Shown: positions 1,264 through 55,391 of the stretch, piece after piece
Position numbering within the stretch: position 1 is the first letter of the stretch
Layout: every line of letters begins with the position of its first letter
Source of the DNA: Thiobacillus sp.
Lineage (GTDB): Bacteria > Pseudomonadota > Gammaproteobacteria > Burkholderiales > Thiobacillaceae
DNA length: 64,000 nt
Assembly (NCBI RefSeq): GCF_030696885.1
Contig: NZ_JAUYRI010000005.1
Location: forward strand, 186,001 to 250,000
Direction: 5' to 3'
Made by a program: the position numbers and the translations under genes
The notes under the pieces: generated by a model
The model's input: the letters and a program-made list of their open reading frames with translations, nothing else
What the model was told of the DNA's origin: nothing
Databases searched by the model: none

Positions 1264-2676
1264 TCAGCCCGGCGTGCCCAGCGCGTCCTCTTTGCTGCCC
1301 AGATTGATCAGCGGGTCGTAGGCCGGTTCGAGCCGCAACAGGATGTCGTAGTAGTTGCGGATGTTCTCGGCAAAGTGGAGCGCTTCGCCGCCGCGCGCGT
1401 AGCCGTATCGCGTGACGTTTGAATAGGTGCCGCGGCTCAGATAGGGCAGCGCTTCCTTGACGTCGGCCCAGCTGTCCGGATTGCCGCCGCGCGCCTGCGC
1501 AATTCGGCGCGCATCTTCCATGTGTCCCTGACCCTGGTTGTAGGCGGCCAGCGCCAGCCAGGTGCGGTCGGGTTCGGCGATGCGAGCCGGCAGCGCGTCT
1601 TTCATCAGGGCCAGATAGCGTGCGCCGCCGAGGATGCTCTGGCGGGGATCGAGACGGTTCGAAACACCCATTCGGTCAGCGGTTTGCCCGGTCAGCATCA
1701 TCAGTCCGCGCACGCCGGTCGGCGAAGTCGCCAGCGGATTCCACTGCGACTCCTGATAACCGATCGCGGCCAGCAGACGCCAGTCGATGCCGGTCAGCGT
1801 CTGCGCTTCCTGGAAATGTCGGCGAAACTCGGGCAGGCGCAGCGGACGGCGCTGCAGGATGCCGAGGATGTCGCTGCTGTCGAGCCGCCTGACATGACCA
1901 AAATAACGTTCATGGATGCGTCGGATGGTGCCGTCCTTGCGCGCCTGTTCGACATAACGCGCGAGCGCATTGCGCATCGCCTGCGAACTGCGGGGCGGCA
2001 GCGCCCACACGATTTTTTGCGTGTCGCCGATATCGAATGCCACGCCGAGGTCGGGGTAGAGGCTGCGCATCGGATCGAAATCCATGCCGCTGATCACCAC
2101 CGCGTCGTACTGGCCTGCCTGCAGTTGCGCCAGCAGTTCTTCCGGCCAGACGTTTTCCAGCGCTGCCCAGGAAATTCCCGGGTACTTGCGCTTTTGCCGC
2201 ATCAGGACGGGGGTGTGACCGGAGCCGATGATCAGCGCCAGCCTCTTGTCTTCCAGTTCGGCCATGCTGCGCGGCCGCCGTTCGCGAGTGCGGTACACGA
2301 TATGGATCGGCGTCTCGAACAGCACTGGGCCGGAGATCAGGTGGCGGTCCTTCACCACGGTTTGCGGCAGGATGGCGGCGACCAGGTGGATGTGGTTGCT
2401 GTCGAGCAGTTCGAACAGGGATTCGGGACGGTTCTTGATGGTCCAGTTCAGCGACCAGTTCTGCGAACGCGCGAAGGACTGGATCAGGTCATGCTCGAAT
2501 CCGGCCGGCTCGCCATTGGCACCGATATAGTAGGAAGCCGGGCTGTTGCGGGTTCCTACCCACAATTCCCCCGTGACTTCGGGCGGCGGTACCGGGCGGC
2601 TGCAAGCGGCCAGTGCCAAATACAGCACCAGCACCAAGCCTCTTCCGATGTGCGCCGTTTTTCTTATGACCGGCAT
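1264..2676 (-). CDS. mltF: Membrane-bound lytic murein transglycosylase F
   Basis: Cleaves peptidoglycan glycan strands to 1,6-anhydro ends at the outer membrane. The 470-aa product has an N-terminal lipoprotein signal (hydrophobic run ending LALAAC, lipobox Cys near residue 22), a periplasmic solute-binding-like domain (about 35-260) and a C-terminal SLT lysozyme-like domain with the catalytic Glu in GYQESQW, followed by GVRGLMMLT. The ATG at 2676 was chosen because it directly precedes the signal peptide. The frame stays open upstream only because it runs through the antisense of the tRNA-Ser gene. It is convergent with serS. E. coli MltF is somewhat longer (518 aa). Confidence 0.93.
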   Translation of the reverse strand: MPVIRKTAHIGRGLVLVLYLALAACSRPVPPPEVTGELWVGTRNSPASYYIGANGEPAGFEHDLIQSFARSQNWSLNWTIKNRPESLFELLDSNHIHLVAAILPQTVVKDRHLISGPVLFETPIHIVYRTRERRPRSMAELEDKRLALIIGSGHTPVLMRQKRKYPGISWAALENVWPEELLAQLQAGQYDAVVISGMDFDPMRSLYPDLGVAFDIGDTQKIVWALPPRSSQAMRNALARYVEQARKDGTIRRIHERYFGHVRRLDSSDILGILQRRPLRLPEFRRHFQEAQTLTGIDWRLLAAIGYQESQWNPLATSPTGVRGLMMLTGQTADRMGVSNRLDPRQSILGGARYLALMKDALPARIAEPDRTWLALAAYNQGQGHMEDARRIAQARGGNPDSWADVKEALPYLSRGTYSNVTRYGYARGGEALHFAENIRNYYDILLRLEPAYDPLINLGSKEDALGTPG

Positions 2677-2879: not shown

Positions 2880-3250
2880 CCATCATGTGGGTGGTACAAA
2901 GAAGTGGTCCAAAGCTTATGGAGCGTTGGACCTGTGTACCCCGTCATATCTGTTCTCCCGCGGTGGAATCTTCTGTTTCCGCATCGCCATCCCTGCACGA
3001 CTGCGTCCGGCCCTTTCTGGTCTAACGGAGTTTCGCTGCTCACTCTTTACCCAAGACTAAAAACAGTCCTGACGAAATCCTGGATTCTGTCGATACAAAG
3101 TCAGAGCATATTTGAACCTCCCCTCGGCCATCCCAATTCTTCTCGGCAGTCGATGTCCCGATCCTCCCCGGATTTCGGCCTGCCGGTTGCGGCAGGTGCG
3201 AAAAAGCCATCCCCGCATCGTGCTAGACTCCCGCAAAACCTGAGACAAGC
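2880..3250. other. Intergenic region without recognisable gene
   Basis: About 370 bp between tRNA-Ser and the first flhB copy, visibly less GC-rich than its surroundings. Short frames exist on both strands, but their translations resemble no family I know and they have no convincing ribosome site. No transposase, integrase or clear attachment-site duplication is visible. Its position directly 3' of a tRNA gene makes decayed element DNA possible. Confidence 0.5.
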
Positions 3251-4138
3251 ATGGCCGAGGAGTCAGACCTTTCGCGTACCGAACCGGCAAGCCCGCGGCG
3301 CCTGCAAGAGGCGCGCAATGCGGGCGATGTGCCGCGTTCAGCCGAATTTGCCGCGTGGGCGGTCCTGCTGTCGGCGCTGGGCGCGCTGAGCTGGCTGGCG
3401 CCGCGCCTGTTGCAGTCCCTGCAATCCCTGCTCGAAGCGGCGTTCGCCCCGGGCGCCCATCCGCTTTCCCCGACTTTTCTCGAATCGCTCCAGACCGTGC
3501 TGTGGGTGCTGGTGCCCTTGCTGGCGGTCATTTTTGTCGCCGCGCTGGTAGCGCCAATGCTGCTCTCCGGCTGGGTCTATGCGCCGCAGCGCGCGCAGGC
3601 CGATTTGAGCCGGGTCCATCCTTTCAAACCGCTGGTCCGGCTGTTTTCTGCCGATGCCTGGTTCGATGGCGGGCTGGTGCTGCTGAAGCTCGCGCTGGTC
3701 GGGGCCGCGGTCGGCTGGGTGCTGACGGGCGAATGGCTCGCGCTGCATGGCCAGTCTGCCGACGCTATGCTGGCACCGGCCGCCGCATGGGTCGGGCGTG
3801 GCGTGCTGGCGCTGGCCGCGGCGCTGACGGTGATTGCCGCGCTGGATGCCGGTTGGCGCTGGTGGCGCTACCTGCGCCGCCATGCAATGACCTGGCAGGA
3901 GGTGCTGGCCGAGGCACGCGAAGCCGAGGGCAGCCCGGAAATGCGGGCGCAGATGCGTGAGCGCCAGCAGCAGTCGGGGCAGGGGGCGAACGCCGGGGCC
4001 ATGGCGCGCCCTCACCCTAACCCTGATGAGACGACTGGCCAATCGACTAAGCCCGCGAGCGGGCAAGTCGCTGGTTATCTCCCTGGGGGAGAGGGGACAA
4101 ACGCCAGGCCCACATCGATTAACGAGGTGATCGGGTGA
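3251..4138 (+). CDS. flhB: FlhB-like flagellar export protein lacking the cleavage domain
   Basis: Member of the FlhB/EscU export-gate family, here copy 1 of two in the window. The 295-aa product starts with the family pattern (TEPASPRRLQEARNAGDVPRS) and has four hydrophobic segments between about 30 and 205. The cytoplasmic linker (EAREAEGSPEMRAQMRERQ) matches copy 2 up to about residue 240. It then runs into unrelated sequence encoded by a palindromic repeat (4009-4100), so the NPTH autocleavage site and the whole C-terminal cytoplasmic domain are absent; full-length FlhB is about 380 aa. The TGA overlaps the flhA GTG. The gate's substrate-switch function should be lost, so it may be a decaying gene or a repurposed shortened FlhB. 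Family membership is secure. Confidence 0.85.
   Translation: MAEESDLSRTEPASPRRLQEARNAGDVPRSAEFAAWAVLLSALGALSWLAPRLLQSLQSLLEAAFAPGAHPLSPTFLESLQTVLWVLVPLLAVIFVAALVAPMLLSGWVYAPQRAQADLSRVHPFKPLVRLFSADAWFDGGLVLLKLALVGAAVGWVLTGEWLALHGQSADAMLAPAAAWVGRGVLALAAALTVIAALDAGWRWWRYLRRHAMTWQEVLAEAREAEGSPEMRAQMRERQQQSGQGANAGAMARPHPNPDETTGQSTKPASGQVAGYLPGGEGTNARPTSINEVIG
4009..4100. repeat. Palindromic REP-like repeat inside the 3' end of flhB copy 1
   Basis: The block starts with CCCTCACCCTAACCCT and ends with CTCCCTGGGGGAGAGGGG, the style of dispersed palindromic repeats common between proteobacterial genes. An inner hairpin pairs CGACT-AA-GCCCGC (4044-4056) with GCGGGC-AA-GTCG (4059-4070). Here it is read as the last about 45 codons of the truncated flhB, so it marks the point where the coding sequence was lost or replaced. 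Confidence 0.6.
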
Positions 4139-6213
4139 ACGGGCAGGGCGTGATGGTGATGGGCATGCCGTTGAACCGGCTGGCGGTGCCGCTGCTGGTG
4201 CTGCTGATCCTGGCGATGATGATCCTGCCGCTGCCGACCTTCATGCTCGATGTGCTGTTCACGCTCAACATCGCGCTGGCGATGATCGTGATGCTGGTGA
4301 GCCTGAACGCACGGCGGCCGCTGGATTTCTCGGTGTTTCCCACGGTGCTGCTGCTGACCACACTGCTGCGCCTGTCGCTCAACGTCGCGTCCACCCGCAT
4401 CATCCTGATGGAGGGACACACCGGGCCAGACGCGGCGGGCAAGGTGATCGAATCCTTCGGCAACTTCCTGGTCGGCGGCAACTACGTCGTCGGCTTCGTG
4501 GTGTTCCTGATCCTGGTCATCATCAACTTCGTCGTCATCACCAAGGGCGCCGGGCGCATCGCCGAGGTGGCGGCACGCTTCACGCTGGACTCGATGCCGG
4601 GCAAGCAGCTGGCGGTGGACGCCGACCTCAACGCCGGCTTCATCAACGAGTCCGAAGCGCGCACCCGGCGTGCCGACATCGGGCGCGAAGCAGATTTCTA
4701 TGGCGCGATGGACGGCGCCTCCAAGTTCGTGCGCGGCGACGCGATCGCCGGCATCATCATTCTGCTGGTGAATCTGGTCGGCGGCGTGCTGGTCGGGCTG
4801 TTCCAGCATGACCTGGGGCTGACCGAGGCGCTCGGGCGCTATGCGTTGCTGACCGTGGGCGACGGTCTGGTGACGCAGATTCCGGCGCTGATCATTTCGA
4901 CCGCGGCGGGCATCGTGGTCAGCCGTGCGTCGAGCGAACAGGATCTGTCGCGCGAGTTTTCCACCCAGATTTTCGGCCGTCCGCAGACGCTGTTCATCGC
5001 CGCCGTCGTGCTGGGGGTACTGGGCCTGATTCCAGGCACGCCGCATCTGGCCTTTTTGACCATTGCCGTGGTGCTGGGCGGACTGGGGGGATGGCTGCTG
5101 CGACGCCAGCGTGCAGTGCTTGCGGACACGCCGCTGCTGGAACCGATCGAGGAGTTGCCCGCACCACTCGATGTCACCTGGGACGACATTCCGCCGGTCG
5201 ACGTGCTGGCGCTCGAAGTCGGCTACCGGCTGATTCCGCTGGTCGACCGCAACCAGGGCGGCGCGGCGCTGGCGCGAATCACCGAGTCGCGCCGCCATTT
5301 TGCCGCCGACATGGGCCTGGTGGTGCCGCTCATTCGCGTGCGCGACAACCTCGAACTCAAGCCCAATAGTTATCGCATCACGCTCAAGGGCGTGGTCGTG
5401 GCACACGGCGAAATGCCGACCGGCCAGGTGCTGGCGGTGGATATGGGCGACGTGCTGGGCAAACTCGACGGCACGCCGGGCGCCGATCCGCTGACCGGGC
5501 TGCCGGGCATCTGGATCGAAGCCGGACGCGAGGAGGAAGCCGAATTGCGTGGCTTTGTGGTGCTGGAGCCGGCCGAGCTGATCGCGCGCCAGGTCGAGGC
5601 GGTGTTCCGCCAGCACGCGCCGGAGCTCCTCGGGCGCACCGAAGTGCAGCAGTTGCTCGACACGCTGGCGCGCACGCACCCGGGACTGGTCGAGGACGTG
5701 ACGCCGCGTCATTTGCCGCTGACCACGGTGCAGACAGTGCTGCAGCAATTGATCGCGGAAAACGTCTCGATCCGCGACACCCGCACCCTGTTCGAAACGC
5801 TGGCGGCGCGCGCGCCCCGTAGCCAGGCCATCGACGAACTGCTGGAAACCGTGCGCGCCGCGCTCGGCCGCAGCATCGTCGACCGCCTGTTCGAGGGCAG
5901 CGATACGCTGCAGGTGATCGGGCTGGCGGCGGCGACCGAAGCCCGCCTGTTCAACGAAATGGGCGACGAAGGCGAAGCGCTGCTGAGTCCGCCCACGCTG
6001 GAGGCGCTGAACCAGGCCGCCGAGCGCGCGCTGGCCGAACAGGAAGGCGCCGGTTATCCACCGGTGCTGCTGACCTCGGCCGGTTTGCGCGCCGTGCTGT
6101 CGCGGCTGCTGCGGCGCAATCAGCCGCGGCTGGCGGTGATTGCCTACGCCGAGGTGCCTGCCGATAAAATGGTGCGGGTGAATACGGAACTGAGCATGGG
6201 AGAAGCGGCATGA
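4135..6213 (+). CDS. flhA: Flagellar export gate protein FlhA, copy 1
   Basis: Inner-membrane core of the flagellar type III export gate. The 692-aa product has about eight N-terminal membrane segments (roughly 15-320). The FHIPEP signature region is intact (GAGRIAEVAARFTLDSMPGK, then DADLNAG), and a large cytoplasmic domain follows with VGYRLIPLVD and RDNLELKPNSYRI. The GTG start at 4135 overlaps the flhB stop, with AACGAGG as a plausible ribosome site. The stop overlaps the flhF start by 4 bp. It is the same length as copy 2 at 51175 but clearly diverged along its whole length. No inactivating lesion was seen, in contrast to its flhB and flhG neighbours. Confidence 0.95.
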   Translation: MNGQGVMVMGMPLNRLAVPLLVLLILAMMILPLPTFMLDVLFTLNIALAMIVMLVSLNARRPLDFSVFPTVLLLTTLLRLSLNVASTRIILMEGHTGPDAAGKVIESFGNFLVGGNYVVGFVVFLILVIINFVVITKGAGRIAEVAARFTLDSMPGKQLAVDADLNAGFINESEARTRRADIGREADFYGAMDGASKFVRGDAIAGIIILLVNLVGGVLVGLFQHDLGLTEALGRYALLTVGDGLVTQIPALIISTAAGIVVSRASSEQDLSREFSTQIFGRPQTLFIAAVVLGVLGLIPGTPHLAFLTIAVVLGGLGGWLLRRQRAVLADTPLLEPIEELPAPLDVTWDDIPPVDVLALEVGYRLIPLVDRNQGGAALARITESRRHFAADMGLVVPLIRVRDNLELKPNSYRITLKGVVVAHGEMPTGQVLAVDMGDVLGKLDGTPGADPLTGLPGIWIEAGREEEAELRGFVVLEPAELIARQVEAVFRQHAPELLGRTEVQQLLDTLARTHPGLVEDVTPRHLPLTTVQTVLQQLIAENVSIRDTRTLFETLAARAPRSQAIDELLETVRAALGRSIVDRLFEGSDTLQVIGLAAATEARLFNEMGDEGEALLSPPTLEALNQAAERALAEQEGAGYPPVLLTSAGLRAVLSRLLRRNQPRLAVIAYAEVPADKMVRVNTELSMGEAA

Positions 6214-7328
6214 GCGTACAGGTATTCGTCGCCGCGAATGCGCGTGAAGGGCTGGCGCGCGTTCGCCGCGAACTCGGCGACGACGCCGTGGTGCTGTCCA
6301 CGCGACCGCATCCGCAGGGCGTCGAACTGGTGGCCAGCGCCTACGGTGATCTGACCGTGGCGGCGGCGGGTGAGGTGGCAGACAGCGCAAGCGGCTCGCG
6401 CATCCTGCACGAGCTGTCGCGGCTGCGCGGCATGTTGCAAAACCAGCTGGCCGGTTTTGCCTGGGGCGCGGGCCGGCGACGCGACCCGGTCCGGGTGGCG
6501 CTGCTGCAAACGCTGTTCGCCGCCGGCTTCGGCAGTGCGCTCGCCCGCACGCTGGCGGCGCGCCTGCCGCGCGGACTGGACACTGATGCCGCCCAACGCT
6601 GGCTGCGCCAGGTGCTGATCCGCAATCTGCCGCTGCTGGGACGCGATGCCGATCTGCTGGCGCGAGGCGGGCGTTACGCGCTGGTCGGCCCCACCGGCTC
6701 AGGCAAGACCACCACGCTCGCCAAGCTCGCCGCGCGCGCGGTCGATGTCCACGGCGCCGGCGCCGTGGCGCTGGTGGGCGCCGATACCTATCGCATCGGC
6801 GCGGCGGCGCAGCTTGGCGTGTATGCCGACCTGCTCGACGTGTCGCTGCATGTCGCGGACGATCCGGCCCGGCTGGCGCAGCTGCTGCCCGAGCTCGCGG
6901 CCAAAAAGCTGGTGCTGATCGATACCGCTGGCTTCGCGCCGAACGATCCGCGCACGCGTGACGTGCATGCGCTCGACGCGCTGGGGGTGCGCCGTATCGT
7001 CGTGATGTCCGCCGCCCAGCAGGGCGCGGCGATCGAGCAGGCGATGGCACACTTCGGCCAGGGCGCAGCCGCCTGCATCCTGACCAAGCTCGACGAAACC
7101 CCGCAGCCGGGGGCCGCGCTCGACAGCCTGATACGCCACCGCCTGCCGCTGGCGTATCTCAGCAGCGGCCAGCGGGTGCCGGAAGACCTGCACGCCCCCA
7201 ATGCCGCCTATCTGATCGACCGCGCGCTGAAGGGCGGCCAGCTGGCCACCCCGTATGCACTCGACGCCGAGGACTGGCCGCTGTTTGCCGGCGTCGAGGC
7301 CGAGCGTACGGAACGTCGTGCAGGCTGA
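6210..7328 (+). CDS. flhF: Flagellar biosynthesis GTPase FlhF, copy 1
   Basis: SRP-type GTPase that in polar flagellates recruits early flagellar parts to the pole. In the 372-aa product the N-terminal B domain starts SVQVFVAANAREGLARVRRELG, an N domain follows, and then comes the G domain. That domain carries the P-loop GPTGSGKTTTLAKLAA, then GADTYRIGAAAQL, LIDTAGF and TKLDE. Nucleotide-binding motifs look complete. It is about 50 aa shorter than copy 2, mostly in the linker between the B and N domains. It overlaps flhA by 4 bp and the next gene by 11 bp. Confidence 0.93.
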   Translation: MSVQVFVAANAREGLARVRRELGDDAVVLSTRPHPQGVELVASAYGDLTVAAAGEVADSASGSRILHELSRLRGMLQNQLAGFAWGAGRRRDPVRVALLQTLFAAGFGSALARTLAARLPRGLDTDAAQRWLRQVLIRNLPLLGRDADLLARGGRYALVGPTGSGKTTTLAKLAARAVDVHGAGAVALVGADTYRIGAAAQLGVYADLLDVSLHVADDPARLAQLLPELAAKKLVLIDTAGFAPNDPRTRDVHALDALGVRRIVVMSAAQQGAAIEQAMAHFGQGAAACILTKLDETPQPGAALDSLIRHRLPLAYLSSGQRVPEDLHAPNAAYLIDRALKGGQLATPYALDAEDWPLFAGVEAERTERRAG

Positions 7329-8007
7329 CCAGGCGGCCGGACTGCGGCGGCGCAAGGCGCGCCAGCCGCTGCGCTGCATCCACGGTTTCTTCGAATCCCC
7401 TGACGCCAGCACCCGGCTGGCACACGCGCTGCACCGGCTGGGCCGGACCATCCTGCTGATCGATCTGAATGGCCGCCTGTTCGAGGCCGCCGCGCCGCGC
7501 AGCCTGTTCGACTGGAAGCGCCAGCTCGAACGCGGGCAGCTCCACGGGCTGCCGCAGGCCTATGGCGGCGGCTGGGTCGCGCCCGGCATGCCGGCCGATG
7601 AAGCGGGCTTGCGCGACAGGCTAACCGGTTACGACCCGGTGCTGTTCGATGCCGGCCGCCCGGACACCGCGCCTGCTCTGCTGGCCGGCGCAGTCCATGA
7701 CGCCGTCGTCGAAATCGGCCGTAGCGATGAATCGATGCGCTACGCCTACGCGCTGATCAAGACACTGATGCAGCGGGGCGGCATCGCCCGTATCGGCCTG
7801 CTGGGCGATGCAGCGGCCTGCGAACAGGTGCAGGCCGCGTGTTGCCACTTTATCGGGCAGGCCATGACGAGCGTGCTTTTCGATGCGGCACGCGAAGATG
7901 CGCCATTTGCCGCGCTTGCCGTTAGAATGGCGGGCGACGAGACGCGCCCAGCGGCGCGCTCCCCAACAGAACGCTCAGGAAACATGGCCTTGAATCATGG
8001 CGGTTAA
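7318..8007 (+). CDS. flhG: FlhG/FleN-like MinD-family protein without P-loop, copy 1
   Basis: FlhG is the MinD-like ATPase that works with FlhF to set flagellar number. The 229-aa product has the family N-terminus (QADQAAGLRR, activator helix), but where copy 2 reads SGQQGAGKTS this protein reads HGFFESPDASTR (residues 22-33). The Walker A lysine is therefore gone. Downstream strands such as TILLIDLNG keep the MinD-like fold pattern. ATP hydrolysis is unlikely. The GTG at 7318 was chosen because it gives the conserved start and overlaps flhF; an ATG at 7255 would add residues unlike the family. Assignment rests on position and the N-terminal match. Confidence 0.7.
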   Translation: MQADQAAGLRRRKARQPLRCIHGFFESPDASTRLAHALHRLGRTILLIDLNGRLFEAAAPRSLFDWKRQLERGQLHGLPQAYGGGWVAPGMPADEAGLRDRLTGYDPVLFDAGRPDTAPALLAGAVHDAVVEIGRSDESMRYAYALIKTLMQRGGIARIGLLGDAAACEQVQAACCHFIGQAMTSVLFDAAREDAPFAALAVRMAGDETRPAARSPTERSGNMALNHGG

Positions 8008-8707
8008 ACCCTCGTCGCAAGACGAACAAGTCACCAAGTACGCACCGCTGGTCAAGCGCATCGCGTACCACATGATGGCGCGCCTGCCCGCCAGCGTCGA
8101 AGTCGACGACCTCATTCAGGTCGGGCTGATCGGCCTGCTGGACGCGGTCGGCCGCTTCGACGGCACCCAGGGTGCCCAGTTCGAATCCTATGCCACGCAG
8201 CGCATTCGCGGCGCCATGCTTGACGAGTTGCGCGAGGCCGACTGGCTGCCGCGCCACGTGCGCCAGAAATCACGCCAGATCGAATCGGCCATCCACCGGC
8301 TGGAGCAGCGCAACGGGAAGTCGCCCACCGAACAGGAAATTTCCGCCGAGCTGGGCATGCCGATCGACCAGTACCAGTCGATGCTGGGCGACGTGAAATG
8401 TTCGCAGCTGCTGTATTACGAGGACTTCTCGGATGAAGACAGCGCCAGTTTCCTCGAGCGCTATCTGGTCGACGGCAGCAACGACCCGCTCTCGGTGCTG
8501 GAGGATGCCGGCTTCCGCGAGGGCCTGATCGCCGCGATCCATCATCTGCCCGAGCGCGAGCGCAGCATGATGGGCATGTACTACGAGCAGGACATGAACC
8601 TGAAGGAAATCGGTGCCGTGCTCGGCGTGTCCGAATCGCGCGTGTGCCAGTTGCACTCGCAGGCCGTGGCGCGTCTGCGGGCCCAGCTGAAAATATGGAA
8701 AGACTGA
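7997..8707 (+). CDS. fliA: Sigma-28 flagellar sigma factor FliA, copy 1
   Basis: Sigma-70-family factor that directs RNA polymerase to late flagellar promoters. The 236-aa product shows region 2 (YAPLVKRIAYHMMARLPASV, then VDDLIQVGLIGLLDAVGRF and QRIRGAMLDELREADWLPR), region 3, and region 4 with a helix-turn-helix (LKEIGAVLGVSESRVCQLHSQA). All regions look intact. It starts inside the end of flhG and closes the first cassette. A second fliA lies at 55392. Two sigma-28 genes in one genome could divide promoters or simply be redundant. Confidence 0.94.
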   Translation: MAVKPSSQDEQVTKYAPLVKRIAYHMMARLPASVEVDDLIQVGLIGLLDAVGRFDGTQGAQFESYATQRIRGAMLDELREADWLPRHVRQKSRQIESAIHRLEQRNGKSPTEQEISAELGMPIDQYQSMLGDVKCSQLLYYEDFSDEDSASFLERYLVDGSNDPLSVLEDAGFREGLIAAIHHLPERERSMMGMYYEQDMNLKEIGAVLGVSESRVCQLHSQAVARLRAQLKIWKD

Positions 8708-46225: not shown

Positions 46226-46543
46226 ATGAAAATGGACGAAATGCTGGACGAGATGCGCGATGTCAATCTCAACTACCTGATGCTGGCGCAGAGCATGATC
46301 CAGCACGACAAGGCCACGGCCATATTTCGCCTCGGCATCACCCAGGACGTCGCCGAACTGGTCGAGGCCCTGACCCCCGCACAGATTCTCAAGCTGGCCA
46401 GCTCCGGCATGATGGTGTCGCGCTTGCGCTTCGACGGCGGCGCGGTGCTGAATATGCTGACCAATTACACCAAGGATCGCTCGCTTGCACAGTCGCACGC
46501 CGCCATCCTGATGGCCGCCCAGCAAGCCGAAGCCTTCGCCTGA
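46226..46543 (+). CDS. flhD: Flagellar master regulator subunit FlhD
   Basis: With FlhC forms the FlhD4C2 activator of class II flagellar promoters. The 105-aa product shows the family pattern DVNLNYLMLAQSMIQHDKATA, FRLGI and LTPAQILKLA. A GGAAGGA site precedes the ATG. Followed 27 bp later by flhC. Confidence 0.95.
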   Translation: MKMDEMLDEMRDVNLNYLMLAQSMIQHDKATAIFRLGITQDVAELVEALTPAQILKLASSGMMVSRLRFDGGAVLNMLTNYTKDRSLAQSHAAILMAAQQAEAFA

Positions 46544-46570
46544 ATCCAGCACCACACAAGGGAGCGAGAC

Positions 46571-47119
46571 ATGGGCAAAAAAAGCCTGCTGACTGAAATG
46601 CGCGACACCCAACTGGCGATCGAACTGATCGAACTCGGCGCCCGCCCGCAAGTACTGGAATCTGAAACCACGTTGTCGCGCGAGCGGTTGCTCAAGCTGT
46701 ACAAGGAAGTGAAGGGCGTATCACCACCCAAGGGCATGCTGCCGTTCTCGACCGACTGGTTCCTGACCTGGCTGCCCAACGTTCATTCCTCGCTGTTCAT
46801 CAACATCCACCGCTATATCACCCGCAACAGCGACTGCAGCGGCATCGAAGCCGTATTGAAAAGCTACCGCCTGTACCAGGAATACCTGCACACCAACCAG
46901 ATCGAGGCCGTGTTGAGCTTCACCCGCGCCTGGACACTGAACCGTTTCTTTGAAAGCCGCATGCTCGAAACCGCCGTCTGCAGTGACTGCGGCGGTCACT
47001 TCGTGGTGCATCCGGACGACCTGCACGACAAATATGTGTGCGGCCTGTGCAATATGCCCGCGCGCGCCGGCAAAACCCGCAAGGCCAAGGCCGCGGCCGA
47101 GCTTAGCGCCGCAGCCTGA
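46571..47119 (+). CDS. flhC: Flagellar master regulator subunit FlhC
   Basis: DNA-binding partner of FlhD. The 182-aa protein has the N-terminal helices (LAIELIELGARPQVLESET; LSRERLLKLYKEVKG) and the C-terminal zinc site with four cysteines (CSDCGGHFV and CGLCNMPAR). A GGGAGCGA ribosome site precedes ATG 46571. Single copy in this window, although the late flagellar cassette is duplicated. Confidence 0.95.
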   Translation: MGKKSLLTEMRDTQLAIELIELGARPQVLESETTLSRERLLKLYKEVKGVSPPKGMLPFSTDWFLTWLPNVHSSLFINIHRYITRNSDCSGIEAVLKSYRLYQEYLHTNQIEAVLSFTRAWTLNRFFESRMLETAVCSDCGGHFVVHPDDLHDKYVCGLCNMPARAGKTRKAKAAAELSAAA

Positions 47120-47142
47120 GCGTACGGTCCCGGCCGCCGGCA

Positions 47143-47913
47143 ATGACGCGCCTGCCAGTTGCGCTCCAATCTCTCCTCATACAGTGCGCCGCTCTCCTCC
47201 TGGCGTTACTGTTCAACGGCCTGATCCAGGCCGTTTTTTTATTCTCGCCCGTGCTGTGGCAACTGGCCCTGGCCCAAGGCGCACTCGCCGCCGGGCTCAG
47301 CCATTACTGGAAGCAGCCGATCTGGTGGCGCCCGCTGCATGCCGGGTTCCTGCTCGTTGTTCTTGCGGCCTTGCAGCTGGATTTACCGGCCTGGGCCTAC
47401 CTGGCGGCCTTCCTGCTGTTGCTGCTGTTCTACTGGAGCAGTTTCCGCACCCGGGTTCCCCTCTATCTGTCTGACCGCAAGGCCTGGCAGGCGCTGGCAG
47501 CGCAGTTGCCGGAGCGCGGCCCGTTCCGTCTCATCGACCTCGGCAGCGGCTTCGGCGGCGTGCTATTCCATCTGGAGGCGCGTTTTCCGCAGGGGCAGTT
47601 CAGCGGCGTCGAAATCGCGCCGGCGCCGTGGCTGATCAGCCGGTTGCGCGCACGCCTCAGGCACAGCCGGGTCGATTTCCTGCGCCGCGACTATGCACAT
47701 CTTGACCTGGGCGCGTTCGACGTCGTGTTCGCTTTTCTGTCGCCTGCGGCGATGCCGGACCTGTGGCAGCAGGCCGAGCGCCAGATGCGCCCCGGCAGCC
47801 TGTTCGTCAGCCTGTCCTTCGGCGTCGACGCCCGTCCACCCGATCGGGTGATCCCCTTGGCCGAGGGCGAGCGGCACACCCTTTACGTATGGTGCATGCA
47901 GGGGAGTGGTTGA
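47143..47913 (+). CDS. Membrane-anchored class I SAM-dependent methyltransferase-like protein
   Basis: The 256-aa product begins with about four hydrophobic segments (residues about 8-105) and then a Rossmann domain with motif I LIDLGSGFGGVLFHLEA, VEIAPAPWLISRL and DVVFAFLSPAAMPDLW. It looks like an inner-membrane methyltransferase. Substrate unknown. It sits between flhC and motA on the same strand with 23 bp to flhC, an unusual partner for a flagellar locus. It may be an independent passenger, since motA has its own promoter-like site downstream. Confidence 0.75.
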   Translation: MTRLPVALQSLLIQCAALLLALLFNGLIQAVFLFSPVLWQLALAQGALAAGLSHYWKQPIWWRPLHAGFLLVVLAALQLDLPAWAYLAAFLLLLLFYWSSFRTRVPLYLSDRKAWQALAAQLPERGPFRLIDLGSGFGGVLFHLEARFPQGQFSGVEIAPAPWLISRLRARLRHSRVDFLRRDYAHLDLGAFDVVFAFLSPAAMPDLWQQAERQMRPGSLFVSLSFGVDARPPDRVIPLAEGERHTLYVWCMQGSG

Positions 47914-47932
47914 ATTTACTGAGGCCGCGCCA

Positions 47933-47959
47933 TCAAGTTTCGTGTGATCTGGTCGAATT
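47933..47959 (+). promoter_or_regulatory. Sigma-28 (FliA)-type promoter of motA
   Basis: TCAAGTTT (47933-47940) matches the sigma-28 -35 box TAAAGTTT at 7 of 8 positions. After exactly 11 bp, GTCGAATT (47952-47959) matches the -10 box GCCGATAA at its G, C, G and A positions. It lies about 90 bp before motA, a known class III gene. Confidence 0.5.
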
Positions 47960-48047
47960 CATCCCTGAGTACTCTCGCTTCAAATGCCGGAAAGCGGACC
48001 GCACGATGGTGTCCGGATCCGGCCGACCCAAGTAAAGGAACAGACAG

Positions 48048-48908
48048 TTGTTAGTCATCGGTGGGTATATTACGGTTCTGCTGTGCGTGTTTGGCGGCTA
48101 TGCGCTGGCGGGGGGCTATCTGGCGGCCTTGTGGCATCCGATCGAGCTCCTCATTATCGGCGGTGGCGCGATCGGCGCCTTTCTGGTGGCCAACAACAGC
48201 AAGGCCATCAAGGCCACGTTGAAGGCCTTGCCCACCTTGTTCAAGGGATCCAAATACAACCGCGCGCTCTACATGGACGTGCTCGCGCTGCTGTACGAGC
48301 TGCTGACCAAAATCCGCAAGGAAGGCCTGATGTCGATCGAGGCCGATGTTGATGCGCCGGAGAGCAGCCCGCTGTTCGCCAAGTACCCGGCCATCCTGGC
48401 CGACCACCACATCATCGAATTTCTCACCGACTATCTGCGCCTGATGGTCAGCGGCAGCATGAACGCCTTCGAGATCGAGAACCTGATGGACAACGAGATC
48501 GAAACCCACCACCAGGAAGGCGAGATTCCCGTGCACAGCGTGAGCAAGCTGGGCGACGGCCTGCCGGCGTTCGGCATCGTGGCGGCAGTGATGGGCGTGG
48601 TCAAAACCATGGGCTCGGTCGGCCTACCGCCCGCTGAGCTGGGCATCCTGATCGGTGCGGCCTTGACCGGCACCTTCATCGGCATCCTGCTGGCCTATGG
48701 TTTCGTCAGCCCGCTCGCCAACCTGCTGGAGCAGAAGCTGAACGAATCGACCAAGATGTTCCAGTGCGTCAAGGTCACGCTCCTGGCCAGCATCAACGGC
48801 TACGCGCCGGCCATCGCGGTCGAATTCGGCCGCAAGGTGCTGTTCTCGACTGAGCGGCCCTCCTTCAGCGAACTGGAAACGCATGTGAAGGGCGCGAAAT
48901 CGCGCTGA
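48048..48908 (+). CDS. motA: Flagellar motor stator protein MotA
   Basis: Proton-channel stator subunit. The 286-aa protein has four membrane helices: the first two at LVIGGYITVLLCVFGGYALAG and HPIELLIIGGGAIGAFL, the last two near GIVAAVMGVVKTMGSVG and LTGTFIGILLAYGFVSPLA, where conserved prolines occur. The start is a TTG at 48048, supported by AAAGGAA nine bases before it and by the match to MotA N-termini. Followed by motB after 37 bp. Confidence 0.95.
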   Translation: MLVIGGYITVLLCVFGGYALAGGYLAALWHPIELLIIGGGAIGAFLVANNSKAIKATLKALPTLFKGSKYNRALYMDVLALLYELLTKIRKEGLMSIEADVDAPESSPLFAKYPAILADHHIIEFLTDYLRLMVSGSMNAFEIENLMDNEIETHHQEGEIPVHSVSKLGDGLPAFGIVAAVMGVVKTMGSVGLPPAELGILIGAALTGTFIGILLAYGFVSPLANLLEQKLNESTKMFQCVKVTLLASINGYAPAIAVEFGRKVLFSTERPSFSELETHVKGAKSR

Positions 48909-48945
48909 CCGCGGCGCTGACGTCCGCGTACCCGCATAAGCCTTC

Positions 48946-49881
48946 ATGAGCGAGCAAAAACCCCCGATCATCGTCAAGCGCATCAAGAAAGTGACGGGCG
49001 GCCACCACGGTGGCGCCTGGAAGATCGCCTATGCCGACTTCGTCACCGCGATGATGGCCTTCTTCCTGCTGATGTGGCTGCTCGGCTCGACCGCCAAGGG
49101 CGACCTCGAAGGCATTTCCGAGTATTTCAAGACCCCGCTCAAGGTGGCCATGCAAGGCGGCTCGGGCAGCGGCGACAGCTCCAGCGTGATCAAGGGCGGC
49201 GGCACCGACATCACGCGCCAGTCCGGTCAGGTCAAGAAAGGCGAAACCGAACCCGAGAAAAGAACCTTCAACCTGAGAGCGGCCAAAGCCGAGCTCGAAC
49301 GGGTCGAGAAGGAGAACCTCAAGCAACTGAAAAAAAGCCTGGAGAAGGCGATCGATGCCAACCCCACACTGCGTCAGTTCAAGCGCCAGTTGCTGATCGA
49401 CATCACCAGCGAGGGCCTGCGCATTCAGATCGTCGACGAGCAGAACCGGCCGATGTTCAACCTCGCCAGCGCCGAATTGCAGCCCTACACCAAGATCATT
49501 CTGCGTGAGATCGGCCCGCTGCTGAACGACGTGCAAAACCGCGTCAGCCTGTCAGGGCACACCGACGCAATGCCCTATGCCAACCGCGAACGCGGCTACA
49601 GTAACTGGGAACTGTCGGCCGACCGCGCCAACGCCTCGCGCCGTGAACTGGTCGCGGGCGGCATGGACGACGCAAAAATGCTGCGCGTGGTCGGACTCGC
49701 CTCATCGGTGCCCTTCGGCAGTGCCCAGCCGCTGGACCCGGTCAATCGCCGCATCAGCATCATCGTGATGAACAAGCGTACCGAGGAGGCCATCACTAAA
49801 GAGGCCTCCGGTGTCAGCGACCCCGCCGAGATCGAAGCCGAGACCGGCGAAACGCCGGACGCTGACACAGCAGCGCGTTGA
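48946..49881 (+). CDS. motB: Flagellar motor stator protein MotB
   Basis: Anchors the stator to peptidoglycan and carries the channel Asp. The 311-aa product has one N-terminal helix with the proton-binding Asp in YADFVTAMMAFFLLMWLL, a charged linker, and a C-terminal OmpA-like peptidoglycan-binding domain (LSGHTDAMPY, NWELSADRANASRREL, NRRISIIVM). Paired with motA. A second MotA/B-type pair lies at 56105-57863. Confidence 0.95.
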   Translation: MSEQKPPIIVKRIKKVTGGHHGGAWKIAYADFVTAMMAFFLLMWLLGSTAKGDLEGISEYFKTPLKVAMQGGSGSGDSSSVIKGGGTDITRQSGQVKKGETEPEKRTFNLRAAKAELERVEKENLKQLKKSLEKAIDANPTLRQFKRQLLIDITSEGLRIQIVDEQNRPMFNLASAELQPYTKIILREIGPLLNDVQNRVSLSGHTDAMPYANRERGYSNWELSADRANASRRELVAGGMDDAKMLRVVGLASSVPFGSAQPLDPVNRRISIIVMNKRTEEAITKEASGVSDPAEIEAETGETPDADTAAR

Positions 49882-50029
49882 TCCACGCGCCGCTGGCGCG
49901 AAATAGCAGGCCAAATCCACCCTTATTCCCCTGATCGCCAGCGTTTCGCCTGGCCAATAATTCAGCTTAAGAAAACCCGTCTCGCGCACCTGCGCGGGGC
50001 AGGGTTCCCTCCAACAGGTGAGAACCGGG

Positions 50030-51178
50030 ATGGCTGAAGAGCAAAACGATCAGGAAAAGACAGAATCAGCGTCGCCACAAAAGCTGGAAAAGGCGCGCGA
50101 GGAAGGTCAGGTCATCCAGTCGCGCGAACTGAGCACGTTTGTCGTGCTGATGGCGAGCGGGTCCGCCCTGTGGATCATGGCCAACGGACTGGGGCAGACC
50201 CTGTCGCACATCATGCGCGACGGCCTGAGTTTCGAGCCCGGCTTTGCGCGCGACACGTCGCATGTCATGGCGCAGCTATCGAGTCTTTTCTTTGAAGCGG
50301 CGTTTGCACTGGCCCCGTTTTTCCTGCTGGTGGTATTTGCCACCGTGATTACGCCGCTGCTGCTGACGGGCTGGTTGTTCAGCACCAAGGCGCTGATGCC
50401 GAAATTCAATCGTCTCAACCCGGCATCGGGCATCAAGCGCATGTTCTCGAGCCAGGGCCTGGTCGAACTGGTCAAGGCGCTGGCCAAGGTGGGGCTGCTC
50501 GGCGGCGTCGCCGTGTGGCTCATCTGGATCAACGTCGAATCCGTTTTCTCGCTCAGCATGGAGTCGCCCGTACAGGCCATCCAGCACATGGGCGATATGA
50601 TTGGCAAGATCTTTCTGCTGGTCTCGGCCACGATGGTGTTCATCGTCATGATCGACCTGCCGTTCCAGATCTGGAACCACTTCAAGAAGCTCAGGATGAG
50701 CATGGAAGAACTGCGGCGCGAGGCCAAGGAATCCGAGGGCGACCCGCATCTGAAGGCGCGTATCCGTGCCCAGCAGCGCGAGATGGCACGCCGCCGCATG
50801 ATGTCCGAGATCCCCACCGCCGACGTGGTAGTGACCAACCCGACCCATTACGCGGTTGCGCTCAAGTACACCGAAGGCAAGATGGGCGCGCCGCGCGTGG
50901 TGGCCAAGGGTGCCGACGTCGTCGCCGCGCGCATCCGCGAGCTCGCAGCCGAGCACAAAATCCCGATGCTGGAGGCGCCACCGCTGGCGCGCGCGCTGTT
51001 CCGCCACACCGAAATCGGCAATGAAATCCCGGCCACCCTCTACGCAGCGGTGGCCGAAGTGCTGGCCTATGTGTTCCAGCTGCGCCATTACCAGCAGACG
51101 GGCGGCGCTTATCCCGCAGCGCCGACCGTGCTGCCGGTGCCGCCCGAACTTGATCCGCTGCAGACCACCACCGCATGA
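50030..51178 (+). CDS. flhB: Flagellar export protein FlhB, full-length copy 2
   Basis: Export-gate component that switches secretion from rod/hook to filament substrates. The 382-aa protein has the N-terminal KTESASPQKLEKAREEGQV, four membrane helices, and the C-terminal cytoplasmic domain with the autocleavage motif NPTH at 270-273. ATG 50030 was chosen; four in-frame codons upstream are not conserved. It overlaps flhA by 4 bp. This is the intact counterpart of the truncated gene at 3251. Confidence 0.96.
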   Translation: MAEEQNDQEKTESASPQKLEKAREEGQVIQSRELSTFVVLMASGSALWIMANGLGQTLSHIMRDGLSFEPGFARDTSHVMAQLSSLFFEAAFALAPFFLLVVFATVITPLLLTGWLFSTKALMPKFNRLNPASGIKRMFSSQGLVELVKALAKVGLLGGVAVWLIWINVESVFSLSMESPVQAIQHMGDMIGKIFLLVSATMVFIVMIDLPFQIWNHFKKLRMSMEELRREAKESEGDPHLKARIRAQQREMARRRMMSEIPTADVVVTNPTHYAVALKYTEGKMGAPRVVAKGADVVAARIRELAAEHKIPMLEAPPLARALFRHTEIGNEIPATLYAAVAEVLAYVFQLRHYQQTGGAYPAAPTVLPVPPELDPLQTTTA

Positions 51179-53253
51179 ACGGTACCCTGAGCCTCTCCAG
51201 TCTGTTCAATGGCGCCAACGTTCGTGCGCTGGCGGCGCCGATTTTCATCGTCCTGATTCTGGCGATGCTGGTGCTGCCGCTGCCGCCGATCGCGCTGGAT
51301 TTGCTGTTCACGTTCAACATCGCGCTGTCCATCATGGTGTTGCTGGTCAGCCTGTCGACCAAGAAGGCGCTCGATTTCGCCGCCTTCCCGACGGTGTTGC
51401 TGCTGTCCACCCTGATGCGGCTGTCGCTCAACGTGGCATCGACTCGGGTGGTGCTGCTGGAAGGCCATACCGGCCCGGACGCCGCCGGCAAGGTGATCGA
51501 GGCCTTCGGCCATTTTCTGGTCGGCGGCGATTACACGGTCGGCATTATCGTGTTCGTCATTCTGGTGGTGATCAACTTCATCGTCATCACCAAGGGCGCC
51601 GGCCGCATCGCCGAAGTCAGCGCGCGTTTTACCCTCGATGCGATGCCGGGCAAGCAGATGGCGATCGACGCCGACCTGAATGCCGGCCTCATCGACGAAA
51701 ACGAGGCGCGTCGCCGCCGCACAGAAATTTCGCAGGAAGCTGATTTTTACGGTTCGATGGACGGTGCCTCGAAATTCGTCCGCGGCGATGCGATCGCCGG
51801 CATCCTGATTCTGATCATCAACATCGTCGGCGGCCTGCTCATCGGCCTGATGCAGCACGACATGTCTCTGGCCGACGCCGCCCGCAACTACACGCTGCTG
51901 GCGATTGGCGACGGCCTGGTGGCACAAATCCCGGCCCTGGTCATCTCGATTGCTGCCGGCATCATCGTCAGCCGCGTCAGTACTGAAGAGGATATCGCCG
52001 GTCAGATGATGTCCAACGTCTTCAATAAGACCCAGGCGCTCTATCTCACTGCTGCGATCCTCGGCCTGATGGGCATGATTCCCGGCATGCCGAACTTCGT
52101 CTTCCTGCTGCTGGCGGGCGGCATCGTCTGGCTCGCCTGGCGAGGCAGCCACCAAAAACCCGAGGTGGAACCGGAGGTGCAGGAGGCCCCGCTTGCCTCC
52201 GTCGAAAGCCAAGAAGCCAGCTGGGAAGATGTGGCACCGGTCGACACCCTGGGGCTGGAAGTCGGCTATCGCCTGATCCCGCTGGTGGACAACGCGGCCG
52301 ACGGCGAACTGGTGCGCCGCATCAAGGGCATCCGCAAGAAATTCGCGCGCGAGATTGGCTTCCTGCCGCCCGCCGTGCACATTCGCGACAATCTCGAGAT
52401 CAATCCGAACAGCTATCGCATCACCCTGAAAGGCGTGGAAATCGGCAGCGGCGAAGTGCGCACCGGCCTGTTCCTCGCCATCGACCCGGGCAACATCAGC
52501 GCCACCTTGCCGGGTGTCGCCACAACCGATCCCGCGTTCGGCCTGCCGGCGGTGTGGGTCGAGTCTGGCCTGCGCGAACAGGCACAGTCGATGGGTTACA
52601 CCGTGGTCGACCCCGGTACCGTGATCGCCACCCATCTGAACCATCTGGTCACCCTGCATGCCGCCGAACTGCTCGGCCGCCAGGAAGCGCAGGCACTGCT
52701 CGACCACCTGGGCAAGAGTGCGCCCAAGCTGGTGGAAGACCTGGTGCCGAAAATGCTGACGCTCTCCGCAGTGCAGAAAGTGCTGCAGAACTTGCTGATC
52801 GAAGGCGTGGCAATCCGCGACATGCGGACCATCATCGACACCTTGCTCGAGCATGCCACGCGGGTGCAGGACCCGCACGAACTCACCGCGCTGGTGCGGG
52901 TGGCGCTGGGCCGTTCCATCGTGCAGCAGATCTACGGCTCGACCAATGAACTGCCGGTGATCGCACTCGACCAGGGCCTGGAGCGCCTGCTGATGCAGAC
53001 CCTGCAAACCGGCCACGATGCCGCCGGCATGGAGCCGGGGCTGGCCGACACCTTGCTGGAACGGACCCAGACGTCCACCCAGCGTCAGGAGGCCCTGGGT
53101 CATCCCGCGGTGCTGCTGACGCCGGCCGTGCTGCGTCCGCTGCTTGCACGTTTCCTGCGGCGCACCGTGCCGCAACTCAAAGTGCTTTCGCACGCTGAAG
53201 TACCCGAAGGCAAACAGATCAAAGTGACTTCCCTTGTAGGAGGAGCAGCATGA
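51175..53253 (+). CDS. flhA: Flagellar export gate protein FlhA, copy 2
   Basis: Core of the flagellar export gate. The 692-aa product has about eight membrane segments, the signature GAGRIAEVSARFTLDAMPGK and DADLNAG, then a cytoplasmic domain with VGYRLIPLVDNAADGEL and RDNLEINPNSYRI. Coupled to flhB before and flhF after by 4-bp overlaps, with a GGAGGAG site at its end serving flhF. Confidence 0.97.
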   Translation: MNGTLSLSSLFNGANVRALAAPIFIVLILAMLVLPLPPIALDLLFTFNIALSIMVLLVSLSTKKALDFAAFPTVLLLSTLMRLSLNVASTRVVLLEGHTGPDAAGKVIEAFGHFLVGGDYTVGIIVFVILVVINFIVITKGAGRIAEVSARFTLDAMPGKQMAIDADLNAGLIDENEARRRRTEISQEADFYGSMDGASKFVRGDAIAGILILIINIVGGLLIGLMQHDMSLADAARNYTLLAIGDGLVAQIPALVISIAAGIIVSRVSTEEDIAGQMMSNVFNKTQALYLTAAILGLMGMIPGMPNFVFLLLAGGIVWLAWRGSHQKPEVEPEVQEAPLASVESQEASWEDVAPVDTLGLEVGYRLIPLVDNAADGELVRRIKGIRKKFAREIGFLPPAVHIRDNLEINPNSYRITLKGVEIGSGEVRTGLFLAIDPGNISATLPGVATTDPAFGLPAVWVESGLREQAQSMGYTVVDPGTVIATHLNHLVTLHAAELLGRQEAQALLDHLGKSAPKLVEDLVPKMLTLSAVQKVLQNLLIEGVAIRDMRTIIDTLLEHATRVQDPHELTALVRVALGRSIVQQIYGSTNELPVIALDQGLERLLMQTLQTGHDAAGMEPGLADTLLERTQTSTQRQEALGHPAVLLTPAVLRPLLARFLRRTVPQLKVLSHAEVPEGKQIKVTSLVGGAA

Positions 53254-54515: not shown

Positions 54516-55389
54516 GTTCGTCAGTGATCAGGCCGCCGGACTGCGCCGCTTGCTGGGGCAGACCGGGTTTCAGGTCATTACCGTGATGTCGGGGCAGCAG
54601 GGCGCGGGCAAGACGTCCGCCACCGCCAACCTGGCCGTCGCGCTGGCGCGCTCCGGGCGCGACGTGCTCATCATCGACCAGGACCAGCATGGCCGCGGTG
54701 CCTGCGCGGCGCTGGGCCTGACGCCGCGCTACGACGTGGCGGACGTGCTCGCCGGTCAGTGCACGCTGGACGCCTTGCTGCTGACCGGCCCCGACAACGT
54801 TCAGGTGCTGCCGCTGGGAGGCGGCTTCACCCGGCTTGGCCGCCTGTCGATGCGCGACCAGGAATGGCTGGCGCAATGCTTCAACCGCCTGCAATGCGGT
54901 GTCGACGTAGTGCTGGTCGACATGGAAGAGGCCACCGACCCCGACGCGCTGCCACTCGGCCTTGCCGCGACCGAGATCATGGTCGTGCTGCCGCCCGGTA
55001 GCACCGCGATCACCCAGGGCTACACGCTGGTCAAGCGGCTGTCGCAGAACTTCGGCAAGCGCCGCTTCCGTCTGCTGCTCAATCGCATGGAATCGCAGGA
55101 ACAGGCGCAGGCCGTTGCGCAGAATTTCTCCCAGACTGCCGAGCGCTATCTGGGGGTCGCGGTCGATTACCTGGGGTATATTCCGCTCGACGAGCGCATG
55201 ACCCGCGCCAGCCATTTGCACACCTCGGTGGTGGACGCCTTCCCGGTTGCACAATCCACCTCGCAGTTCCGTAAACTGGCGGAGGGTTTGCTCTGCTGGC
55301 CGCAGCCCCCCAGCCTGGGAAGCGTCGGGGCGTTCATGCAGCGCGTGATCCAGGGCGGCTGCCTGGTGGAAGCCTATAGGAGAGGGTAA
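54490..55389 (+). CDS. flhG: Flagellar number regulator FlhG (MinD-like), copy 2
   Basis: MinD-family ATPase that limits flagellar number and works on FlhF. The product (299 aa from GTG 54490, or from TTG 54508 six codons later) has the activator helix DQAAGLRRLL, Walker A SGQQGAGKTSATANLA, LIIDQDQH and a later DMEEATD block. The lysine of the deviant Walker A (KGGxGKT) is Gln here, but the core GKT is kept. Copy 1 at 7318 has lost even that. Lies between flhF and fliA as in polar flagellates. Confidence 0.88.
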   Translation: MKARWPLDKFVSDQAAGLRRLLGQTGFQVITVMSGQQGAGKTSATANLAVALARSGRDVLIIDQDQHGRGACAALGLTPRYDVADVLAGQCTLDALLLTGPDNVQVLPLGGGFTRLGRLSMRDQEWLAQCFNRLQCGVDVVLVDMEEATDPDALPLGLAATEIMVVLPPGSTAITQGYTLVKRLSQNFGKRRFRLLLNRMESQEQAQAVAQNFSQTAERYLGVAVDYLGYIPLDERMTRASHLHTSVVDAFPVAQSTSQFRKLAEGLLCWPQPPSLGSVGAFMQRVIQGGCLVEAYRRG

Positions 55390-55391
55390 GG

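Follow-up and report, generated by a model that had tools for sequence, protein, structure and literature searches.

Why does a bacterium with genes for a complete flagellum carry a second copy of five of them, two of which lack key parts? The question is posed by a 64,000-nucleotide stretch of a Thiobacillus sp. genome (3.0 Mb in 35 contigs), positions 186,001 to 250,000 of contig NZ_JAUYRI010000005.1 (C28:186001-250000 in our contig numbering), hereafter the window. The gene order flhB-flhA-flhF-flhG-fliA occurs in it twice with tight overlaps, at 3251-8707 (copy 1) and at 50018-56123 (copy 2), as an initial annotation made from the sequence alone had described; our coordinates and identities agree. 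We found that copy 1 belongs to a second, incomplete flagellar system and makes up one half of it; the remaining half, fliFGHIJ-orf-fliOPQR, lies on a separate contig, C24. The two halves together are called system 2 below, and copy 2 with the flagellar genes of contigs C11 and C28 the main system. Our favoured interpretation, to which we give just short of an even chance, is that system 2 is a second, non-motile, flagellar-type exporter of the Thiobacillus lineage, locked in the late mode of export, which would export a second FlgM, FlgM2, and thereby free the sigma-28 factor FliA1.

Gene content of system 2

All five genes of copy 1 are on the plus strand. The first, flhB1 (3251..4138, 295 amino acids (aa)), encodes the membrane half of FlhB only, with neither the NPTH cleavage motif nor the C-terminal domain, and is followed by flhA1 (4135..6213, 692 aa), which encodes a full-length export gate subunit with an altered chaperone dimple and scores above the NCBIfam cut-off for FlhA. 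Next come flhF1 (6210..7328, 372 aa), encoding an SRP-type GTPase (SRP54, 1.6e-30; TIGR03499 FlhF above cut-off), flhG1 (about 7285..8007, about 240 aa, its precise start being uncertain), which lacks the P-loop and has the N-terminal FlhF-activating helix, and fliA1 (7997..8707, 236 aa), encoding a sigma-28 factor that exceeds the NCBIfam cut-offs of the FliA/WhiG models. A putative promoter, the extended -10-like element CGTGCTAGACT, stands before flhB1 (3219..3229, plus strand), and its TGCTAGACT is invariant across 15 aligned genomes of the genus.

Copy 2, also on the plus strand, consists of flhB2 (50018-51178), flhA2 (51175-53253), flhF2 (53250-54515), flhG2 (54490-55389) and fliA2 (55392-56123). 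It had been singled out earlier as the copy that sits with flhDC and stator genes, and this holds: flhD, flhC, one intervening gene, motA and motB precede it (46226..49881, plus strand), and a second MotA/MotB-like stator pair lies immediately 3' of fliA2 (56105-57863). Identity between the two copies is 52% for FlhA, 56% for FliA, 37% for FlhF, 28% for FlhB over its N-terminal part, and a weak 30% for FlhG.

Searched for FliP, the genome yielded two genes; the first belongs to the main cluster, and the second lies on C24, where fliF2 (458 aa), fliG2, fliH2, fliI2, fliJ2, orfM, fliO2, fliP2, fliQ2 and fliR2 follow one another with short overlaps or gaps (C24:88246-95610). The second fliPQR that the initial annotation had proposed looking for is thus present. 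The second fliC that it had proposed alongside was not found: both Flagellin_N matches in the genome, fliC and flgL, are of the main system, and the one at C11:26160, considered as an extra flagellin, is flgL. Pfam matches account for the whole export gate (FlhA, FlhB, FliP, FliQ and FliR, FlhB by its membrane half only) and for the FliH, FliI, FliJ complex, so that by gene content system 2 comprises an MS-ring protein, FliG, the ATPase complex, the export gate, FlhF, an FlhG-like protein and FliA.

System 2 has no rod or hook genes of its own: the five Flg_bbr_C matches in the genome all fall in the main flg cluster on C11, and none of the 56 genomes in our sample of the genus has more than five. 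Nor has it its own FliM or FliN, the two FliMN_C matches (one FliM, one FliN) both being in the main cluster, and neither fliE nor fliK was seen in the system-2 cassettes (no genome-wide search was made for either). The main system extends from flgA to flgL, followed by che genes, on C11, and at the start of C28 it includes che genes, fliR to fliF, fliE, a separate FlhB C-domain protein, fliS, fliD and fliC.

Shared losses and conserved residues

Key parts of FlhB1 and FlhG1 had been noted as lost and were read as possible decay. They are missing indeed, by Pfam and by the NPTH and P-loop motifs, but they are missing in all 21 genomes in which we read both system-2 cassettes, which represent three genera (15 genomes of the genus itself, g1, two of g4 and four of g12, from a family sample of 117), and are therefore old shared features. 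FlhB1 matches Pfam Bac_export_2 over positions 2-241 of 335 only, as against 1-335 for FlhB2, and NPTH, missing from FlhB1 in 21/21 genomes, is present in 11/11 main FlhB. Within the genus, FlhB1 ends in a variable linker followed by a conserved (D/N)EV(I/A)G tail.

Other components of system 2 have changed as well. FliG2 has lost R281 in all 21 genomes and EHPQ in 18 (it is kept in G111, G113 and G116), which we take to be torque and FliM-binding residues. FliF2 has a gap at about E. coli residues 285-360, presumably the collar region, in the eight system-2 rows listed; this gap is filled in the two main FliF listed. Four FlhA residues that we assume to be linked to export energetics, R147, R154, D208 and D249, are kept in 41/41 FlhA1. 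F459 and T490, kept in 11/11 main FlhA, are replaced in 41/41, and at position 456 D stands in 37 sequences and E in four. The dimple of FlhA docks FlgN, FliS and FliT complexes (available parts of PMC8166844), and by these residues FlhA1 has lost the chaperone dimple and retained the four export residues.

At E 0.001 no Pfam family matches FlhG1, nor does any NCBIfam family at E 1; FlhG2 matches CbiA/ParA. The P-loop is missing from FlhG1 in 21/21 genomes, and QAxGL, from the FlhF-activating helix DQAxxLR, is kept in 21/21, preceded by D in 17 and by H in the four g12 genomes. In FlhG this N-terminal helix stimulates the FlhF GTPase, according to the accessible part of PMC12826062. A structural model of FlhG1 (four sequences, mean pLDDT 63.5) has FleN/FlhG as all ten of its best matches among solved structures (E 6e-6 to 9e-5), on which it superposes poorly (root-mean-square deviation >8).

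Retention and selection

FlhA1-type proteins are found in 53 of the 56 genus genomes at 82-100% identity, 48 of them near full length and five partial (one partial flhA1 match, in G033, carries an internal stop); the misses are G005 (75% complete), G015 (94%, contamination 8) and G051 (79%). FliI2-type proteins are likewise found in 53/56 (identity 89-100%; 48 near full length, five in pieces), the misses being G005, G035 and G037. FlhA2 occurs in 46 genomes, of which G051 alone is without FlhA1, hence 45 have both types. Rod or hook matches were obtained in 41/56 genomes and in 23 of the 27 that we count as good (at least 90% complete and at most 5% contaminated). The other four good genomes, G004, G023, G030 and G040, referred to below as non-flagellate, have no FlhA2 at E 1e-100, a single FliI at E 1e-60, which is FliI2, and a single FlhB-family match at E 0.001, which is FlhB1, with no separate C-domain protein.

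We mapped flagellar state onto a single-gene tree built from 41 flhA1 nucleotide sequences, with five genomes scored as non-flagellate (the four above and G049, 79% complete). Four changes are needed, and well-supported branches force at least three. On a simple reading, the main flagellum would have been lost several times with system 2 retained, though any one change could in principle be a regain.

Selection was compared by median Nei-Gojobori ratios of nonsynonymous to synonymous substitution (dN/dS) over 55 pairs of 11 genomes, values that are relative, since the mean proportion of synonymous differences (pS) is 0.36-0.57. With the main counterpart in brackets, these were 0.136 (0.133) for FlhA1, 0.080 (0.149) for FliI2, 0.062 (0.096) for FliA1, 0.181 (0.202) for FlhF1, 0.178 (0.131) for FliG2, 0.211 (0.232) for FliH2, 0.226 (0.275) for FliJ2, 0.28 (0.209) for FlhB1, 0.41 (0.137) for FlhG1 and 0.331 (0.229) for FliF2, the last including a frame change in G002. 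Proteins without a measured main counterpart gave 0.398 (orfM), 0.253 (FliO2), 0.162 (FliP2), 0.204 (FliQ2) and 0.25 (FliR2). The core enzymes FlhA1, FliI2 and FliA1 are thus firmly under purifying selection, like that on the main copies or stronger; some peripheral parts drift. The initial annotation had reckoned with simple gene decay, in which relatives would lack copy 1 and its flhA and fliA would be relaxed; FlhA1 is instead kept across the genus, and flhA1 and fliA1 are under purifying selection.

System 2 also extends beyond the genus. Among the matches listed, short FlhB1-like proteins occur in g1, in g4 (2/3 genomes) and in g12 (8/9), most g12 genomes having short FlhB only, and the open frames are 259-310 aa (one contig-end piece aside), as against at least 376 aa for ordinary FlhB (one partial aside). 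FliI2 relatives at 76-79% identity are present in 12/12 genomes of g4 and g12. The system-2 genes are present in 21/21 genomes read, some by weak matches; flhG was placed by position in three g12 genomes and in the two of g4, as was orfM in g4, and FliF of G060 gave no match. The two cassettes never lie within one 20-kb stretch. Among 46 of 80 loci found with FlhA1, FlhB is short in L003, L005 and L006 and ordinary in the others where it was called, L004 being cut before flhB.

FlgM2 and sigma-28-like sites

FlgM matches (E up to 0.1) were obtained in 55 of the 56 genus genomes, two in 39 and one in 16, with none in G054, and a second FlgM type, flgM2, as grouped by score and position, is present in 54. 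Each of the four non-flagellate genomes has a single FlgM, with the flgM2 neighbours. This neighbourhood, the gene names of which were assigned by eye, is common to 20/20 genomes read: flgM2 (101-102 aa, called short in G008) lies near an mfd-like gene in 19/20 (where the stretch reaches) and a serB-like (13) or DUF1015-like (7) gene, and further neighbours are a small metal-binding-like gene in 13 and a GGDEF/EAL-like gene on the opposite strand.

Upstream of flgM2, a sigma-28-like site, TAAAG-N14-GCCGATAA, is found at 10/13 or better in 14 of the 20 genomes, scoring 13/13 in nine, 12 in three (G004 included), 11 in one (with a spacing of 15) and 10 in one. Each such site was equalled in 0-5 of 200 shuffles, and in none of those of L208. 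The other six genomes (G002, G023, G030, G040, G043 and G053) have TAAGG-N14-GCCGTAT(T/C) instead, the consensus match of which is not above shuffles. Across 267 loci the exact consensus occurs 11 times, nine times at flgM2 loci and twice in E. coli, upstream of flgM and of tar, where it serves as a positive control; the window contains none with up to two mismatches. In 428,138 bases of G004 (23 stretches), eight sites score at least 11/13, compared with 5.0 in shuffles; the flgM2 site is among them, and the sole other site at 12/13 falls inside a holB-like gene. FliA1 would be the natural reader of the flgM2 site in G004. The two promoter types largely follow the upstream gene (loci L208-L227): apart from G011, the consensus site is found with the serB-like gene and the TAAGG variant with the DUF1015-like gene.

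A proposed mechanism and its weak points

How such a system might work is suggested by engineered Salmonella, as described in the accessible parts of PMC13344023. There, early substrates dock at the C-domain of FlhB, which together with Fluke keeps the machine in early mode; without this domain early substrates are not exported, and in cells that lack the rod-hook genes, the FlhB C-domain and Fluke late export is constitutive, FlgM fusions arriving in the periplasm even when FliK is absent (PMC13344023).

In our proposal, FliF, FliG, FliHIJ, FliPQR with FliO, FlhA and the membrane half of FlhB would form an inner-membrane exporter without its own rod, hook, filament or FliM/FliN, which would be fixed in the late state, refusing rod and hook subunits, because its FlhB has no C-terminal switch domain. 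The most likely substrate would be FlgM2, a second anti-sigma-28 factor, and its export would be to the periplasm, since no outer conduit was seen (no genome-wide secretin search was made). With FlgM2 exported, FliA1 would be free to transcribe its target genes; in many species flgM2 would be one of them and so provide feedback. FlhF1 would position the machine, with FlhG1 reduced to an FlhF activator, and the loss of the FlhA1 dimple fits a machine that no longer takes FlgN, FliS or FliT cargo. We infer assembly, the late-locked state, FlgM2 export and the pairing of FliA1 with FlgM2 from the parts list, the shared losses, the retention without a main flagellum, the selection and the site before flgM2, all of which are read directly from sequence. 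A broader formulation, which we hold more cautiously and place somewhat below even, is that evolution has here reduced a flagellum to a valve for transcription, bound to the membrane, in which an exporter without a rod and locked in late mode would have anti-sigma export as its main job and would switch a non-swimming sigma-28 regulon. The data suggest that a motility organelle was turned into a signalling valve in Thiobacillus and two related genera.

Several points weigh against this proposal. A good sigma-28 site precedes flgM2 in just one (G004) of the four non-flagellate genomes; in the other three, G023, G030 and G040, the upstream region has only the divergent TAAGG-N14-GCCGTATT, which is not above shuffles, and no further convincing sigma-28 site was found in the 428 kb of G004. 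Evolution is faster in FlhG1, FliF2 and FlhB1 than in the corresponding proteins of the main system, orfM also evolves fast, and fliF2 of G002 has its frame change. In Salmonella, loss of the FlhB C-domain alone is insufficient with Fluke present (available text of PMC13344023). Finally, the docking route would have to be unusual, since Salmonella exports FlgM as a late substrate and FlhA1 has lost the dimple that serves chaperoned late substrates.

Alternative explanations

The strongest alternative is that system 2 is a general, non-motility secretion or envelope machine for other proteins, or is tied to, for example, type IV pili, with sigma-28 and FlgM2 merely timing its expression. We consider this quite possible if, on balance, doubtful; a broader part in secretion, of the kind known from Lysobacter, is nearly as likely as the FlgM2 valve. 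The system-2 machine is complete enough for export, a valve exporting just its own regulator would seem costly, and in the non-flagellate Lysobacter enzymogenes the flagellar export genes that have been retained serve to secrete flagellar proteins and also influence twitching (excerpts of PMC7277350 and PMC9927559). On the other hand, no candidate substrate gene lies in or adjoining either system-2 cassette in the stretches read, and the range of substrates would be narrowed by an FlhA1 without the dimple for FlgN, FliS and FliT chaperones and an FlhB1 without the docking domain for early substrates.

A second possibility is that system 2 is a relic, what is left of a former second flagellum, which has persisted by chance and is in slow decay. 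The rapid evolution of FlhG1, FliF2, orfM and FlhB1 would be expected of such a relic, as would the frame change of fliF2 in G002 and the internal stop in the partial flhA1 of G033. We nevertheless regard it as improbable: FlhA1 and FliI2 are each kept in 53/56 genomes, the core enzymes are under purifying selection, system 2 has been retained through several losses of the main flagellum, and identical losses are common to three genera. Of the two origins that the initial annotation had offered, an old duplicate or transferred second system in decay, or a repurposed module with its own sigma-28, it is accordingly the second that we favour.

More improbable again is a role as an accessory of the main flagellum, such as an alternative export gate or a store of basal bodies. 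The presence of both FlhA types in 45/56 genomes is what such a role would call for, but system 2 is kept in four good genomes that have no rod or hook, FlhA2, main FliI or FlhB2, and in most of the g12 genomes, which have short FlhB only.

That system 2 might be a non-flagellar type III injectisome, with which it has core families in common, is hardly credible, as FlhA1, FliI2 and FliF2 exceed flagellar NCBIfam cut-offs and fall below injectisome ones (hrcV, 594 against 692 bits; SctN, 480 against 605; SctJ, 77 against 162) and the export genes are accompanied by FliG, FliO, FlhF and FliA. System 2 belongs to the flagellar export family, and on tests that define a flagellum and an injectisome it falls short of both.

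Relation to known systems

Flag-2 of Enterobacterales and the lateral flagella of Bradyrhizobium encode whole flagella. System 2 resembles such dual systems, as far as the available accounts go, in being a second gene set beside a main one, and is unlike them in that none of the 56 genomes has rod or hook genes for it. With the engineered Salmonella it has in common an FlhB without C-domain, the absence of rod and hook and the presence of sigma-28 and FlgM; unlike that strain, it is natural, old and common to several genera, has changes in FlhA, FlhG, FliG and FliF too, and is a predicted exporter (available parts of PMC13344023). Lysobacter likewise retains export genes without a flagellum, but there, in the sources accessible to us, they are the remainder of a sole flagellar set, without FliG, whereas system 2 is a second set, found also beside a complete flagellum, with FliG and its own FliA. 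Chlamydia pneumoniae also has a small flagellar subset without a flagellum, FliI, FlhA and FliF, which according to excerpts of PMC2830194 amounts to three or so proteins beside an injectisome, as opposed to at least 14 flagellar genes, including the whole gate, in system 2.

Partial flagellar sets are also known from surveys (PMC12199754, in part), and a study of Thiobacillus biofilms found flhA transcripts raised, the copy not being specified in the part of the report available (PMC10287647). In the mainly openly licensed literature covered, by searches that were in part not specific to Thiobacillus, we came across no account of this system in Thiobacillus, nor of any second set that runs through a family, has a short FlhB and comes with a sigma-28 and an FlgM of its own. 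If the proposal is right, system 2 would provide natural material on what use half a flagellar motor can be, a question asked in the accessible part of PMC12199754, and a natural test of whether removal of the FlhB C-terminal domain sets the class of substrate, as the engineered Salmonella suggests (PMC13344023, in part). Species without the main flagellum and with system 2 permit a clean genetic test. Furthermore, the system reveals which residues of FlhA, FliG, FliF and FlhG are dispensable once an exporter builds neither axis nor rotor.

Ancestry and further observations

In a tree of FlhA, FlhA1 forms a separate clade on a long stem, apart from FlhA2, and a recent duplication of FlhA2 as its origin is rejected. 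FlhA1 is placed beside all other betaproteobacterial FlhA together with that of E. coli; the support is moderate (88 and 89, by a quick method), and with it and the long stem an ancient paralogy and a transfer are not separated. Of the loci that carry a genus name, the closest belong to metagenome-assembled genomes of Thiobacillus, with FlhA1 at 87% and 83% identity.

Shortly before copy 1 lie a gene for an MltF-like protein (solute-binding and lytic transglycosylase parts, judged by eye; 1264-2637, minus strand) and, between it and copy 1, a tRNA gene (2747-2833); this neighbourhood shows no apparent conservation in the relatives read.

The 153-aa orfM, between fliJ2 and fliO2 (C24:93040-93501; L087:17040-17501), evolves fast and has no family match. 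We considered it as a remnant of FliM, with the middle domain of which it is collinear over 120 columns, but the match (E 0.14) is not significant. Against 12 flagellar families the lowest E was that of FliO (0.008, over only 19 columns), and none was convincing.

The separate FlhB C-domain-like protein in the main fli cluster (C28:26408-26722, minus strand; L091:6408-6722), which we take to be of the FlhX type, was found by profile search in most genus genomes and not in the four good non-flagellate ones.

The fliF2 matches of G002 (L184) fall in two reading frames; the gene is therefore broken there or the sequence contains an error. In the two g4 genomes, G059 and G060 (L190 and L191), FliG2 lies inside one frame of 729-731 aa, and in G059 the FliF match shares this long frame, which suggests a natural FliF-FliG fusion.

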